From Halobacteriales archaeon SW_8_68_21 (lineage in GTDB: Archaea; Halobacteriota; Halobacteria; Halobacteriales; Haloferacaceae), in NCBI GenBank assembly GCA_003023405.1, contig PXST01000002.1, positions 12,108 through 76,107 of the forward strand: a stretch of DNA of 64,000 nucleotides. The letters run 5' to 3'. The notes beneath the pieces were generated by a model, which saw only the letters and a program-made list of their open reading frames with translations, did not search any database and had not been told where the DNA came from. A program made the position numbers and the translations under genes. Below are positions 8,256 to 34,544 of this stretch, piece after piece. The stretch's first letter is position 1, and the number at the start of each line of letters is the position of its first letter.

Positions 8256-8308
8256 ACGCCCCGAGAGCCGCAACCATCTTTATTAGTCGTGTTCGGTTAG
8301 GTGCGGAC

Positions 8309-26727: not shown

Positions 26728-28386
26728 ATGGAGCCAGACTTAGACCGATTCACGTCGCGTCGGTCGACAGTGTACGGTCAACGCGGCGTGGTGGCGACCA
26801 GTCAACCGCTCGCGAGCCAAGCGGGGATCGAAGTGCTACGCGAGGGCGGCAACGCGTTCGACGCCGCGGTCGCTACCGCGGCCGCGCTCAACGTCGTCGA
26901 GCCGACCTCGACCGGGCTCGGGGGCGACGTGTTCGCGCTGTACCGGACCGCGGACGGCGACGTCGGCGCGATGCGCTCTTGCGGCGGTGCGCCGGCCGAC
27001 GCGACGATAGAGAACGTACAGGACGCGCTGGCCGCAGACGACGACGCGGACTCCTACTACCCCGACGACGGCGGCTATGCGGTCGACGACGCCGGCGAGG
27101 CCGGGATGCCCTTCTACGGCCCGCACGCGGTCACGGTCCCCGGGACGGCGCGCGGCTGGGAGGCGACCGTCGAGGAACTGGGCCGGCTGAGCCTCGCGGA
27201 CGCCCTCTCGCCCGCCATCCGCTACGCGACCGAGGGCTACCCGGTGTCGGAGGTCATCGCCTCCCACTGGGCGAGCGCCGATGCGCTGTTCACCGACGAC
27301 CACGCCCGCGAGGCGTTTCTGTTCGACGACGAGCCGCCGGAGGTCGGCCAGACGGTGACGCTCCCCCGGCTCGGCGAGTCGATGCGGAAGATCGCCGAGG
27401 CGGGGGCCGACGTGGTCTACGAGGGCGAGATCGCCGAGGCGATCGCCGACGAGGTCCAGTCGCAGGGCGGGTTCATGACCGTCGACGACCTCGCGGACTT
27501 CGAGGTCGAGTGGCCCGAGCCGGTCTCGACCACCTACAACGGGGCCGAGGTGTACGAGCTGCCGCCGAACAACCAGGGACTGATCGCCTTGGAGGCGCTC
27601 AACGTCGCGTCCGAGCTCGGCGCGGGCGAGTACGACTACGACTCGCCGGAGCGGGTCCACTACTTCGCCGAGGCATTGAAAAGAGCCTTCCACGACGGCC
27701 ACCGCTACGTCACCGACCCCGACTACGAGGCGATCCCGCCGCTCGCGTCCGAGGAGTGGGCGGCCGAGCGTGCCGCTGGCGTGGGCGAGACGGCCTCGCA
27801 CGACGTCTCCTTCGGCGTGCCGAACGCGAACGCCGAGGACGCGGACACCGTCCTCCTCACCGTCGCCGACGACGCGGGCAACGTCGTCTCGTACATCAAC
27901 TCGCGGTTCGCCGGATTCGGCTCCGGTCTCGTCGCGGGCGACACGGGGATCGCTCTCCAGAACCGCGGGGCGTCGTTCTCGCTCGATCCGGACCACCCGA
28001 ACGCGCTCGAACCCGGCAAGCGGCCCTTCCACACGCTCATCCCGGGCGTCGTGAAGTTCGACGAGGACGACTGGGCGGCGTTCGGCGTGATGGGCGGCTA
28101 CATGCAGCCCCAGGGCCACCTTCAGGTGATCTCGAACCTCGTCGACTACGGGATGCCCCTCCAGCGCGCGCTTGACGAGCCGCGGTGGCGGTACCGCGAG
28201 AGCGGCGAGCTGGCGCTCGAACCCCACTTCGACGACGACGCCGCGGCCGAGCTGGTCCGGAAGGACCACGACGTGCGGACGCTCTCGCCGGTCATGTTCG
28301 GCGGCGCGCAGATCACCCGGAACCGGAAGGGAGTCCTCTCGGCCGCCACCGAGCCCCGGAAGGACGGGAACGCGCAGGGGTACTGA
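26728..28386 (+). CDS. ggt: Gamma-glutamyltransferase family protein
   Basis: ASQAGIEVLREGGNAFDAAVATAAALNVVEP, TVLLTVADDAGNVVSYINS, GGYMQPQGHLQVISN. Confidence 0.92.
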   Translation: MEPDLDRFTSRRSTVYGQRGVVATSQPLASQAGIEVLREGGNAFDAAVATAAALNVVEPTSTGLGGDVFALYRTADGDVGAMRSCGGAPADATIENVQDALAADDDADSYYPDDGGYAVDDAGEAGMPFYGPHAVTVPGTARGWEATVEELGRLSLADALSPAIRYATEGYPVSEVIASHWASADALFTDDHAREAFLFDDEPPEVGQTVTLPRLGESMRKIAEAGADVVYEGEIAEAIADEVQSQGGFMTVDDLADFEVEWPEPVSTTYNGAEVYELPPNNQGLIALEALNVASELGAGEYDYDSPERVHYFAEALKRAFHDGHRYVTDPDYEAIPPLASEEWAAERAAGVGETASHDVSFGVPNANAEDADTVLLTVADDAGNVVSYINSRFAGFGSGLVAGDTGIALQNRGASFSLDPDHPNALEPGKRPFHTLIPGVVKFDEDDWAAFGVMGGYMQPQGHLQVISNLVDYGMPLQRALDEPRWRYRESGELALEPHFDDDAAAELVRKDHDVRTLSPVMFGGAQITRNRKGVLSAATEPRKDGNAQGY

Positions 28387-28614: not shown

Positions 28615-30006
28615 ATGACGCGAAGAATCCAGCGACGCGACGTGCTCAGAGGTGCCGGTGCGGTCGGTATCGCGGGGATCGCCGGCTGCTCGACCGAGAG
28701 CGGCGACGGCGGAGACGGTTCCGACGGTGGAGACGGCTCCGACGGCGGGGACGGCTCCGACGGTGGCGACGGCGGGGACGGCTCCGACGGTGGCGACGCC
28801 GGGTCCGTTCCCGACGCCGTGATGGTCGTCGGGTTCCCGCAGTCGGGCATCCAGCTGTTCCGCGACTTCTACTCGGAGTTCGCCGACAGCGCGCCGGATC
28901 TCGACATCATCGTCCCCGACGGACTGATCGACAGCGACCTCCCGGGCGAGGTCGACAACGACATGAACAACGTCATTGGTACGGCACCGTCGGCCGGCGG
29001 TCCCGGGGCCGACTTCTTCGCCGAGTCGTATCAGGAGGAGTACGACGAGGAGCCGGGCGTGTTCACTTCGCAGGCGTACGACGCCATGGCGGTCGAGATC
29101 CTCGCGGCCACCGCCGCGGGCGAGAACAACGGCGAGGCGATCCGCGACCGCGTCCGCACGGTCGCCAACCCCGGCGGCGAGGAGTTCGGTCCCTCGAACC
29201 TCCCCGAGGCGATCGAGACGGTCGCCGCCGGCGACCCGGTCCACTACGTGGGCGCGTCCTCGAGCGTCAACTTCGACATCAACGGGGACATGGCCACCGC
29301 CGCATACGACATCACCGACTTCCAGGACGGCGAACTCGTCGGACTCGACACGGTGGAGTTCGGCAACGAACTCTCCGACGAGGATCGGAACGCGACGGCC
29401 GAAGACCCCGTCGGCGTCGACTCGTTCACGGCGCGTGTCGGCGTGTTGATGCCAGAGACCGGAGACCTCGGGCCGCTCGGTGTACCGATCCGCGACGGCG
29501 CGCTGCTGGCCGCCACACAGGTCAACGACGCCGGCATCGGCGTCGATGTCGAGACCCGCGTCGAGGACACGCAGACGGACCCACAGGCTGGCATCTCTGG
29601 GGCGAACGCCCTCGTGAACGCGGGCTTCGGTGCGGTCGTCGGGCCCGCCTCCTCGAACGTCAATCTTCAGGTGTCAGACCAGGTGTTCATCCCGAACGGC
29701 GTCGTGGGCATCTCGCCGTCCTCGACGGACCCGAACGTCACGGATTTAGAGGACAATGGGTACGTTTTCCGGACCGCCCCGTCCGACCTGCTTCAGGGGC
29801 CGGCGATGGCCGACCTCGCCGTCAGCGACACCGTCGGCGCGGAGACCTCCAGCACGTTGTACCTCAACGACGCGTACGGCCAGTCGCTCGAAGAGTCGTA
29901 CGTGAACGCCTTCGAGGAGCGCGACGGCACCATCGATCAGCGCGTCTCCTTCGAGCCGAATCAGGCGACGTACACGAGTCAGTGGTCGAGCGTGCTGAAC
30001 CAGTAG
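28615..30006 (+). CDS. Branched-chain-type ABC substrate-binding lipoprotein with circularly permuted lobes
   Basis: Lipobox and GD-rich linker, then MVVGFPQSGIQLFRDFY... (usual C-half), then VGVLMPETGDLGPLGVPIRDGALLAATQVNDAG... (usual N-half). Confidence 0.8.
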   Translation: MTRRIQRRDVLRGAGAVGIAGIAGCSTESGDGGDGSDGGDGSDGGDGSDGGDGGDGSDGGDAGSVPDAVMVVGFPQSGIQLFRDFYSEFADSAPDLDIIVPDGLIDSDLPGEVDNDMNNVIGTAPSAGGPGADFFAESYQEEYDEEPGVFTSQAYDAMAVEILAATAAGENNGEAIRDRVRTVANPGGEEFGPSNLPEAIETVAAGDPVHYVGASSSVNFDINGDMATAAYDITDFQDGELVGLDTVEFGNELSDEDRNATAEDPVGVDSFTARVGVLMPETGDLGPLGVPIRDGALLAATQVNDAGIGVDVETRVEDTQTDPQAGISGANALVNAGFGAVVGPASSNVNLQVSDQVFIPNGVVGISPSSTDPNVTDLEDNGYVFRTAPSDLLQGPAMADLAVSDTVGAETSSTLYLNDAYGQSLEESYVNAFEERDGTIDQRVSFEPNQATYTSQWSSVLNQ

Positions 30007-30333: not shown

Positions 30334-31164
30334 CTACCCGCCGAGGAAGTCGCGCCGAACGTCCTCGTCGGCGAGCAGCACGTCTCCCCGGTCCGTGTAC
30401 CGGTTCCCCCCGTTCACCAGCACGTACCCGCGGTCGCAGCGGCGGAGCGCCTCCGTCGCGTTCTGCTCGACCATCAGCACCGCCGTCCCCGAGTCGTTGA
30501 TCCGGTCGATCCGGTCGAACATGTCGGAGACGAGGTCGGGAGCGAGACCGGCCGAGGGCTCATCGAGCAACAGGAGGTCGGGGTCGAGCATGAGCGCCCG
30601 CCCCATCGCCACCATCTGCCGCTGGCCGCCGGAGAGCGTCCCCGCCTTCTGGTCGCTGCGCTCGCGGAGGATCGGGAACCGGTCGTAGATCGTCTCGATC
30701 TGGTCTTCGGGTACCTCGTCGAGGATGTACGCGCCCATTTCGAGGTTCTCGCGGACGCTGAGTCCGGGGAAGACGTTGTCGTTCTGCGGGACGAACCCGA
30801 TCCCCTCGCGGATGATCCGCTCGGGCGCGAGCCCGTGGATCGGCTCGCCGTTGAACTCGACGGTGCCGCCCATGTGGGTCGTGAGTCCGAACACCGTCTT
30901 CATCACCGTCGACTTGCCGGCCCCGTTCGGGCCGACGATGGTCACGTACTCCTCGCCGGCGACGTCGAGGACAATGTCCGAGAGGATCTGGAGGTCGCCG
31001 TAGCCGGCGTCCAGATCGCGGAGCCGCAAGATCACATCGCCGTCGAGCGCGTGGGTCGTCCCGGCGGTCACGTCGGCGTCCGGGTTGCCCCCGGCGTCCG
31101 GGTCGGACTCCGTGGCCGGTTCGGTGCTCGTCGCACCGTCGGCGTCCGCGGCGTCGGCGGTCAT
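30334..31164 (-). CDS. Branched-chain amino acid-type ABC transporter ATP-binding protein (LivF-like)
   Basis: GPNGAGKSTVMKTVFGL, LSGGQRQMVAMGRALMLDPDLLLLDEPSAGLAP. Confidence 0.92.
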   Translation of the reverse strand: MTADAADADGATSTEPATESDPDAGGNPDADVTAGTTHALDGDVILRLRDLDAGYGDLQILSDIVLDVAGEEYVTIVGPNGAGKSTVMKTVFGLTTHMGGTVEFNGEPIHGLAPERIIREGIGFVPQNDNVFPGLSVRENLEMGAYILDEVPEDQIETIYDRFPILRERSDQKAGTLSGGQRQMVAMGRALMLDPDLLLLDEPSAGLAPDLVSDMFDRIDRINDSGTAVLMVEQNATEALRRCDRGYVLVNGGNRYTDRGDVLLADEDVRRDFLGG

Positions 31165-32117
31165 AGGTCCTCCCCCAGGTACGCCTCGATGACCCGCTCG
31201 TCGTTCCGTATCTCGTCGCCGGTCCCCTCGGCAAGCACGCTGCCCTGATGCATGACGATGACGCGTTCGCAGTTGTCCATGATAACGTCCATGTCGTGTT
31301 CGACGAGCAGGAAGGTGTAGCCGTCCGCGCGCAGGTCGTGGATCCGGTCTAAGAGCTTCTCCTCTAAGGTCGGGTTGACCCCGGCGAGCGGCTCGTCGAG
31401 CAGCACCATCTCGGGATCGGTCATCAGCACGCGGGCCATCTCCAGCAGCTTCCGCTGCCCGCCGGAGAGGTTCCCCGCGTGCTCGTGTGCGAGGTGGTCG
31501 ATCTCGAAGAACGCCAGCGTCTCCCAGGCGCGCTCGCGCAGCGCGGTCTCCTCTTCGACCACCGCGCCGCGGAACCCGGGCGTCACCGCGCGGATCGCGG
31601 ACTCGCCGAGCTGTCCCTGCGGCGCGAGCATCAGGTTCTCTAAGACTGTCATCTCGGAGAGCTCCCGGGCGATCTGGAACGTCCGAACCAGTCCCTTCCG
31701 CGCGATCTGGTTCGGTCTGAGCCCCGTGATGTCCTTGCCCTCGAAGTACACCGTCCCAGCTGTCGGCTCGTGGACGCCGGTGATACAGTTGAACGTGGTC
31801 GATTTCCCCGCGCCGTTCGGGCCGATGAGTCCGGTGAGGGATCCGGACTCGACCTCGAAGGAGGTTCCGTCGACGGCCGCGACGCCGCCGAACCGCTTCA
31901 CCAACCCCTCGACGCGAAGCGGCGGCGTCCCGGACGGCACGTGTTTCGCCGCCTCCTCGACCTCGCTGTCGTTCGCCTCCGGTTCGTCGACGGCCGGAGC
32001 CGAGGCGTCGACCGCGTCGGCGACGGCGTCCGTGTTCGCCGCGTCGCTTGCGTCTGCCGCGTCCCTCACGTCCGCCGTCTCGTCCGGACCGGGGGCGTCG
32101 CTACTCATCGGACTCAC
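31161..32117 (-). CDS. Branched-chain amino acid-type ABC transporter ATP-binding protein (LivG-like)
   Basis: GPNGAGKSTTFNCITGV, LSGGQRKLLEMARVLMTDPEMVLLDEPLAGVNP. Confidence 0.92.
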   Translation of the reverse strand: MSPMSSDAPGPDETADVRDAADASDAANTDAVADAVDASAPAVDEPEANDSEVEEAAKHVPSGTPPLRVEGLVKRFGGVAAVDGTSFEVESGSLTGLIGPNGAGKSTTFNCITGVHEPTAGTVYFEGKDITGLRPNQIARKGLVRTFQIARELSEMTVLENLMLAPQGQLGESAIRAVTPGFRGAVVEEETALRERAWETLAFFEIDHLAHEHAGNLSGGQRKLLEMARVLMTDPEMVLLDEPLAGVNPTLEEKLLDRIHDLRADGYTFLLVEHDMDVIMDNCERVIVMHQGSVLAEGTGDEIRNDERVIEAYLGEDL

Positions 32118-33426
32118 CTCCGGCAGGCCGCTCGGAGAGGTCGACGGCCGCGGCCGTCTCGATCCGATCGCCGAGGATCCCCTCCGGCCGCCGGTGGATG
32201 ATGAACACTAAGACGAGACCGAGGAAGACGAACTGGAGCGGCGCGACGTTGTCGGTCGCGTACGCGAGGAACGTCACCGGGTCCAGCGAGACGAGCGCGT
32301 CCGCGAAGGAGCCGGGCGTCTCCGCGTCGATGAGGCCGCGGACGGCCCCGCCGACGCGCCGCGGCCCCTCGAACAGCACCGCGGCGAAGATGATGCCGCC
32401 GAGGACGGAGCCGGTGTTCGAGCCGGAGCCGCCGATGATCACCGCGATGAAGACGTAGAAGGTGAGAAGCGGCCGGAACTGCGGCGTGGGCGAGACGTTG
32501 CCCTGACTGCCGAACCAGAGGATGCCGGCGAGTCCCATCAGCGCGCAGCCGATGACGAACACCTTGATCTTCACGAGGTTCACGTCCTTGCCGAGCGAGT
32601 TGGCGACGAGTGCGTCCTCGCGGAGCGCCTTCGTCGTCCGCCCGAACGGCGAGCTGCCGAGGCGTTCGAGCAGGAGGTAGAAGCCGACGAGGAAGACGCC
32701 GAGGACGGCGATGTACCCCCAGCCGATGAGGATCGGGTGAGAGATGCCGAGGCCGTCGGTCCCGAAGACGCCGAAGACGAGATCGCCGAGCGCGGTCGGG
32801 GTCCCCGCCTGCCCGTCGACAAGGAACAGGCCGCGGACGGGGTTGTCCGGCATCCCCATCCCGCGGCCGCCGCCTGTCCCGGCACCGATCGTGTCGCGCA
32901 GGAAGCTGTCGAAGGCGCTTGACTGGAGCGAAAGCCGGATGATCTCGGAGAGACCAAGCGTCACGATCGCGAGGTAGTCGGCCTTGAGCCGGAGTGCCGG
33001 CAGCGCGGCGACGCCCCCGAGCAACGCTGCCACCGCCATCCCGGCGAGGATACCCACCGGGAGCGGCAGCCCCAGTCCGGGGGGTCCGAAGGCCGGGTCC
33101 GGCGACCGGACGACCATCCCCATCGTGTACACGCCGACGGCCATGAAGCCGGCGACGCCGATGTTGAACAGTCCGGTGTACCCCCACTGGAGGTTCAGCG
33201 CGAGCGCGGTGAGCGCGTAGACGAGGCCGAGGAACGTAAGCGTCTCCATGAGTCCGACGACGCCGTTGAGACCGTCGCTGAAAGAGAGGAGCGCCGCGGC
33301 CGCGTAGACGACGAGCAGCGTCCCGACCACGAGTCCAAGATCGCTCTCCTCGGCGGCCGCAATCACCGCCGCCGTGGCGCTCTCGGGCGCGTCGGCTTCG
33401 GGAGCGGCCGAATCTACGCCGCTCAT
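32101..33426 (-). CDS. Branched-chain amino acid-type ABC permease (LivM-like)
   Basis: ALNLQWGYTGLFNIGVAGFMAVGVYT, IIGGSGSNTGSVLGG; start at MSGVDSAAPEADAP. Confidence 0.9.
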   Translation of the reverse strand: MSGVDSAAPEADAPESATAAVIAAAEESDLGLVVGTLLVVYAAAALLSFSDGLNGVVGLMETLTFLGLVYALTALALNLQWGYTGLFNIGVAGFMAVGVYTMGMVVRSPDPAFGPPGLGLPLPVGILAGMAVAALLGGVAALPALRLKADYLAIVTLGLSEIIRLSLQSSAFDSFLRDTIGAGTGGGRGMGMPDNPVRGLFLVDGQAGTPTALGDLVFGVFGTDGLGISHPILIGWGYIAVLGVFLVGFYLLLERLGSSPFGRTTKALREDALVANSLGKDVNLVKIKVFVIGCALMGLAGILWFGSQGNVSPTPQFRPLLTFYVFIAVIIGGSGSNTGSVLGGIIFAAVLFEGPRRVGGAVRGLIDAETPGSFADALVSLDPVTFLAYATDNVAPLQFVFLGLVLVFIIHRRPEGILGDRIETAAAVDLSERPAGGESDE

Positions 33427-34544
33427 GCGGTCGAAACACCTCCGAACAGCCCCTCGGGGCGAAGGAGAAGCATCAGGATCATCACGGCGAACGCCGCGGC
33501 CTGGTTGAAGTCGGACGGGATCCAGATCGTCGAGGTGGTGAACACGACCCCGATGACGAGTCCGCCAACGATGGCACCGTAGACGGAGCCGATCCCGCCC
33601 AGGATTACGGCCGCGAAGATGAGCAGGAGGAGGAGCCAGCCGAAGTCGAACTGGATCGTACCGCGGAGCAGGACGTAGAGGTAGCCGGACGCGCCCGCGA
33701 GCCCGCCGCCGATGATCCACGTGGCGGTGACGACGCGCTCGGCCGGGATCCCGGTGATGAGCGCGAGGTCCTTGTTGTCGGCCATCGCGCGCATCGCCGT
33801 GCCGAGCTTCGTGTGCTGGAGCATGGCGTGCATCGCGAGCATCAGTCCGACCGCGGCCACGAGGATGGTGAGTTCGTGCGCGTTCACCGAGACTCCGAGG
33901 GGACCGAACGCGAGGTTCGACTGCTCGACGCTCGCGGTCACGCCCCGGCGGTCGGAGCCGTAGCCGAACTGGAGCAGATAGCGGACAATGAGCGCCGCGC
34001 CGATGGAGGCGATGAGTAGCGCGATGCCGTCACGGTCTCGCATCGGCTTGTAGAACGCCCGGTCGAGCGCCACCGCGAGCAGCGCGGTGACGACGAACGC
34101 CGCGATCAGCCCGAGGAGGATCGCGCCGGGCGTCGAGAGGATGTGCGCCCCGATGTCGCCCGGGGAGGCGTTCCCCGCGTCGCGGACGGTCAGGAGCGCT
34201 CGGACCGGCACGTCGCCGAACCCGGCGATCAGGAACGCGACCCCCCACCCGGTGAATGCGCCCGCGCTGACGAGGTCGCCGTGCGAGAAGTTCGCGAACG
34301 AGAGGATGCTGTACGTCATCGAGAGCCCGATACCGGCCAGCCCGATCACGAGGCCGATGACGACGCCGTTCCAGAGGTTCGATCCGAGCCGGTCGACCGA
34401 GACCGCCCCCCCGATCGGGCCGAGACCGACCCCCGCGAGCTTCGCCGCGAGGTCGGCGAGGAGTAGGCCGCCGAGGAGAGCGACGAAGAGGAGCCCCGGT
34501 CGACCCCGTGCGACGTCGACGATCGACGAGTCAGTTGTTCCCAT
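33423..34544 (-). CDS. Branched-chain amino acid-type ABC permease (LivH-like)
   Basis: GIGLSMTYSILSFANFSHGDLVSAGAF, ILGGIGSVYGAIVGG. Confidence 0.9.
   Translation of the reverse strand: MGTTDSSIVDVARGRPGLLFVALLGGLLLADLAAKLAGVGLGPIGGAVSVDRLGSNLWNGVVIGLVIGLAGIGLSMTYSILSFANFSHGDLVSAGAFTGWGVAFLIAGFGDVPVRALLTVRDAGNASPGDIGAHILSTPGAILLGLIAAFVVTALLAVALDRAFYKPMRDRDGIALLIASIGAALIVRYLLQFGYGSDRRGVTASVEQSNLAFGPLGVSVNAHELTILVAAVGLMLAMHAMLQHTKLGTAMRAMADNKDLALITGIPAERVVTATWIIGGGLAGASGYLYVLLRGTIQFDFGWLLLLLIFAAVILGGIGSVYGAIVGGLVIGVVFTTSTIWIPSDFNQAAAFAVMILMLLLRPEGLFGGVSTA

Follow-up and report, generated by a model that had tools for sequence, protein, structure and literature searches.

The analysed window is a 64,000-nucleotide stretch of contig PXST01000002.1 from Halobacteriales archaeon SW_8_68_21. 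At positions 28615-30006 (+) it contains a single open reading frame (ORF) of 463 aa, which encodes a lipoprotein with a twin-arginine-type signal. The protein starts with MTRRIQRRDVLRGAGAVGIAGIAGC, i.e., the signal, which is followed by a Gly/Asp/Ser-rich spacer; homologs with the canonical order of halves have an N-terminus of the same kind (signal plus lipobox). Table 1 lists the parts of this substrate-binding protein (SBP) gene and of the neighboring transporter genes. As stated in the initial annotation, a complete LivHMGF-like set lies beside the SBP gene on the opposite strand (34544-30334), and the convergent arrangement SBP> LivF< LivG< LivM< LivH< is common to permuted and canonical genes. 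A gamma-glutamyltransferase (GGT) gene (26728-28386, +) is found directly upstream of the SBP gene.

Table 1. Parts of the permuted SBP gene and the adjacent transporter genes (positions in the window)
Feature	Coordinates	Strand	Basis
Twin-arginine-type signal peptide (RRDVL), lipobox IAGC, predicted lipidated Cys25	28615..28689	+	Direct sequence reading
Gly/Asp/Ser-rich spacer from lipid anchor to folded domain	28690..28806	+	Sequence; length and composition vary among species
F half (canonical C-terminal half), strand PDAVMVVGFPQSG to canonical C terminus ...TVEFG	28807..29370	+	Peripla_BP_6 profile 189-311, half-HMM, tblastn
Linker from canonical C terminus to canonical N terminus (NELSDEDRNATAEDPVGVD...)	29371..29427	+	Alignments of permuted clades
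S half (canonical N-terminal half, ARVGVLMPETG...), ends at break in helix SQWSSVLNQ	29428..30003	+	Peripla_BP_6 profile 2-186, half-HMM
LivF-like ATPase, convergent with SBP gene	30334..31164	-	Pfam ABC_tran; conserved gene order
LivG-like ATPase	31161..32117	-	Pfam ABC_tran and BCA_ABC_TP_C
LivM-like permease	32101..33426	-	Pfam BPD_transp_2; start set at Met of MSGVDSAAPEAD
LivH-like permease	33423..34544	-	Pfam BPD_transp_2

The two halves of the protein are swapped relative to the canonical LivJ-like order, as had been proposed from the letters of the ORF. Residues 64-183 match positions 189-311 of the Pfam profile Peripla_BP_6 (E 5e-6, with the first part scanned alone), and residues 273-460 match positions 2-186 (E 1.2e-30 with the whole protein). 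ANF_receptor and Peripla_BP_5 are the other Pfam families that match the protein. The PDB relatives 4n0q and 3td9 give an equally swapped pair of matches, and the nearest PDB relatives are Leu/Ile/Val-type binding proteins. Homology to LivJ/LivK-type SBPs covers the whole domain, and the canonical collinear order is absent from the window protein and from the 80 ORFs classified as permuted (see below). The old termini are 18-30 aa apart in all permuted clades, as compared to 2-5 aa between the halves in canonical genes. The gene is a naturally circularly permuted LivJ-type SBP (HAAT, type I / cluster B) in its sequence order.

On the 343-position Pfam profile, the break lies at 186/189. This corresponds, in the structure model of a canonical homolog (locus L035 of Halorarius litoreus; pLDDT 81, pTM 0.81), to a short loop between helix 183-189 and strand 196-200, and when aligned to 3td9 the break falls between ...SVAMSFN and PDAIYITGY. 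Going by the known domain boundaries of LivJ/LivK proteins, we take this loop to be part of lobe 2 (the C lobe), so that the break sits in the middle of lobe 2 and not, as first described, almost exactly at the interlobe crossover. For the window protein itself, only a weak model was obtained (pLDDT 60, pTM 0.62, shallow alignment). Using Foldseek, the best matches of this low-confidence model were LivK/LivJ-type structures covering one half only (~213 columns, TM 0.28), and the canonical L035 model was matched to the same structures over its full length (388 columns; TM 0.77/0.83 to 3td9). Half-length matches are what a permutation would be expected to produce with an order-dependent aligner, which agrees with the swap but does not prove the two-lobed type I fold.

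Besides the window, 26 loci in GTDB species genomes (L009-L034) showed the full swapped order as a single collinear tblastn match, and the swapped order is therefore far beyond chance. Their hosts include Halorubrum species, for which a search had been suggested, and also Halohasta salina, Natronomonas sp. LN261 and two Halobacteriales MAGs; the permutation is thus widespread in haloarchaea, and the idea of a local or Halorubrum-specific oddity had to be given up. The canonical order was seen in L035-L048 (Halorarius, Halobaculum, Haladaptatus, Halococcus, Halegenticoccus, Halostella, Salinibaculum and one MAG). Full-length collinear homologs, named in the initial annotation as evidence against a swap, do exist; they are themselves permuted, so that this criterion has to be rephrased, and the other homologs are canonical. 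About 160 of the 394 sampled haloarchaeal genomes contain a match of a strength seen only for the permuted order (best E <= 1e-98), the order having been checked individually for 80 permuted ORFs. Classification by HMMs of the two halves gave these 80 permuted ORFs and 69 canonical ORFs, and a search with the canonical L035 protein found canonical genes in roughly as many of the sampled genomes. Canonical relatives share up to 59-68% identity per half with permuted genes. No permuted order was seen outside Halobacteriales in the phylum-wide profile search and the phylum sample. In the plasmid search, two Haladaptatus matches were the canonical L039 and L046, and the other good matches consisted of two separate pieces, none collinear. 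The source genome also encodes a distant SBP of canonical order (~33% identity) on another contig (C48:17556-18827; loci L002/L003/L007).

For the gene trees, the halves were aligned separately and rearranged to the canonical order; groups P1 to P4 were defined by gene order rather than by the tree, and the pairings were tested after the tree had been seen. In the tree, four separate groups of permuted genes are nested among canonical genes, and all are broken at the same helix-strand loop. P1, which contains the window protein, has canonical L035 as its sister (100/98); P2, a large group, adjoins canonical L125/L127/L132 (100/92); P3 is a separate permuted group, and P4 groups with canonical L121/L122 (96/92). 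The starred branches of this tree force four order changes, and a single permuted clade appeared in no bootstrap tree. In the first AU run, with Treekit, one permuted clade (p=0.00026), P1+P2 (p=0.0002) and P1+P3 (p=0.0002) had the lowest values, followed by P2+P3 (p=0.0504), P3+P4 (p=0.07) and P2+P4 (p=0.26). Constrained searches with IQ-TREE (LG+F+R4; 72 taxa; two free runs each for the concatenated and half alignments) gave p=0.0013 for one clade, p=0.0002 for P1+P2, p=0.009 for P1+P3 and p=0.03 for P2+P3+P4.

The likeliest alternative is a single permutation that spread by gene transfer. Homologous recombination with canonical genes already present in the recipients would then have replaced parts of it, chiefly the S half, and so mimicked several origins. 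The one-clade tests of the half alignments, repeated with IQ-TREE because a constrained tree had beaten the free search in the first run, speak on both sides of it: a single permuted clade is compatible with the F half taken by itself (p=0.40) and is rejected by the S half (p=0.0015). The F half also disfavours the concatenated topology. Each half favours a tree of its own, and the halves have therefore probably recombined to some degree. An identical break site, similar linker lengths across groups and a DSIPG-like motif common to P4 and some P2 linkers likewise fit one origin. Against it, a single clade is also rejected by the 120 columns around the break (p=0.0023), although joining just P1 with P2 gives p=0.068. 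The best tree of these columns places P1 with canonical L035/L109/L105-117, and according to identity profiles P1 is closest to the same genes on both sides of the break. P1 and P2 are mutually closest in no tested stretch, with the exception of one stretch of P2 (columns 27-54).

A control tree was built from the four LivHMGF genes, which were never permuted (1267 columns). Here P1 groups with L035 (100/100) and then with L109/L105-112 (100/99), P2 groups with L125/L127 (100/99), with canonical L125/L127 placed inside P2, and P3 and P4 group with L122 (100/100). AU tests of this alignment gave p=3e-6 for one clade, p=3.5e-46 for P1+P2 and p=0.0017 for P2+P3+P4, and P3+P4 was allowed, so these two can be one origin. 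Because the groups of the LivHMGF tree agree with those of the SBP tree, the SBP and transporter genes share one history; under a single origin, gene conversion would need to have happened several times, on each occasion in agreement with the lineage of the transporter genes at that locus, and we regard that scenario as unlikely. The simplest and best-fitting account of these trees is that one loop was the site of three or more separate permutations. We consider it likely that the loop before the third lobe-2 strand is a recurrent permutation site. The swapped order would have become fixed on at least three independent occasions (P1, P2 and P3/P4), and probably on four, in situ next to the same importer, as though a shift of the lipid tether to lobe 2 were favoured over its attachment to lobe 1 by selection or by structure.

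We then consider whether the permuted protein still works. Permuted and canonical proteins conserve the cleft motifs (GxxS, SPxST, FRTxPSD, NxxYG, (F/Y)P and DG) to about the same degree; these residues presumably touch the ligand, an assignment based on LivK structures. In pairs of the window gene with its relatives, both halves have NG86 dN/dS values of 0.05-0.18 when the relative is close, rising to at most 0.31 when it is distant (nearly all pairs), and reading frames are intact in nearly all copies. Given the shared convergent locus, the retained cleft motifs and the purifying selection, it is very probable that the permuted protein still functions as an SBP, and the suggestion that it may still be a functional binding protein is strengthened to a probable functional partner of the adjacent LivHMGF (dN/dS well below 1). 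An amino-acid-like ligand would be expected from the family alone.

A different role, e.g. as a sensor, or a gene in decay, seems very improbable to us. The SBP gene is convergent with the LivHMGF operon and not within it, but canonical haloarchaeal SBPs have the identical arrangement. One permuted P1 gene, in a genome of the genus Halorubrum (L058:6903-8281), is broken by an insertion of ~1.4 kb with a 388-aa transposase-like ORF, the rest of its S half resuming at 8281; the selection, frames and motifs described above argue against sensor and decay readings in general. 

In the reading that we prefer, a working SBP, the Tat-type signal and lipid anchor would lead directly into a lobe-2 loop, the ~20-residue linker would connect the former C terminus to the former N terminus, and the chain would now terminate at the helix preceding the break loop. 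The fold would most likely be the usual two-lobed flytrap, which may catch an amino acid or similar small amide/acid and pass it on to the LivHMGF importer encoded alongside. Physically, the chief difference would be that the membrane tether enters via lobe 2 instead of lobe 1. That the gene encodes a working permuted LivJ-type SBP lipoprotein, and that the same-loop permutation has arisen at least three times in haloarchaea, is a joint reading we hold with good confidence.

An assembly or sequencing rearrangement has practically no chance of explaining the swap, as the same order is found in dozens of independent assemblies, single-contig genomes included. As for how the order changed, tandem duplication with deletion is a guess. 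In 146 loci, the surroundings of the gene contained neither half-tandem intermediates nor fused duplicates, and no vestigial copies of a half. The DNA similarity between the GD linker and the break loop is no better than elsewhere (the break window is at the 56th percentile of the gene), which leaves the linker unsupported as a recombination hotspot. With no duplicated or vestigial halves and no unusual similarity of the linker to the break, we would explain the recurrence by a structurally permissive loop, with selection on which lobe is tethered as a possible contributor.

Natural circular permutation is usually a one-off event between distant proteins. With LivJ/LivK-type SBPs (PF13458, Peripla_BP_6) the window protein shares both recognisable halves, the cleft motifs, the signal and lipobox, and the LivHMGF partner genes; it differs in its swapped halves, its anchor via a lobe-2 loop and an extra linker of ~20 residues. 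The closest precedent is TpMglB-2 (Tp0684) of Treponema pallidum, classed as 'Type Ic / Cluster Bc'. It is a membrane-tethered lipoprotein and a naturally permuted type I SBP, and it was shown to bind ligand and change conformation (PMC4990184). Both proteins are circularly permuted type I SBP lipoproteins, and tethering was also proposed by the TpMglB-2 authors as the reason for the permutation. According to the same source, TpMglB-2 has a re-ordered N-lobe sheet and an unaffected C-lobe order, whereas the window protein has its new termini within the C lobe and no N-lobe re-ordering. TpMglB-2 also belongs to a related sugar-binding (MglB) family, to which the Pfam matches of the window protein do not point, and to a different domain of life. 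It is described there as one topological class and not as repeated origins, in contrast to the apparent repeated origins in haloarchaea.

Permuted halves of the Thermotoga maritima ribose-binding protein (PMC9815098) similarly indicate that the type I SBP fold tolerates new termini, but those constructs are engineered and single-lobe, and the haloarchaeal proteins are natural and full-length. Reviewed natural circular permutants (swaposin, transhydrogenases and DNA methyltransferases), for which duplication or fission-fusion models exist (PMC3320104), combine a changed order with a retained fold, and fold retention is likewise predicted for the haloarchaeal proteins. Unlike those cases, the haloarchaeal permutation is repeated at one loop, in one locus kind and in one archaeal order, with canonical sisters still alive. 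A literature search, which covered a minority of subscription journals, found no published account of a haloarchaeal permuted SBP. The swap is easily missed in annotation since canonical-order profile models match mainly one half of the permuted proteins. With permuted and canonical genes coexisting at the same locus kind in many species, and with apparently replicated origins, the system provides a natural experiment for testing the effects of permutation on folding, Tat export, ligand binding and importer docking, together with the reason for the recurrence.

We note several other features of these loci. P1-type permuted SBPs are also found in Natronomonas sp. LN261 and two genomes from a further family, f4 (L029, L064 and L065), and since their transporter genes group with P1 as well, whole-locus transfer is suggested. 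In L072 and L073, two tandem permuted SBP genes adjoin one LivFGMH set. The GGT-SBP-LivFGMH-LipA neighborhood recurs in many Halorubrum P1 loci and is absent from other permuted clades, except for the P2 loci L060 and L104 (with GGT and LipA on the far sides).
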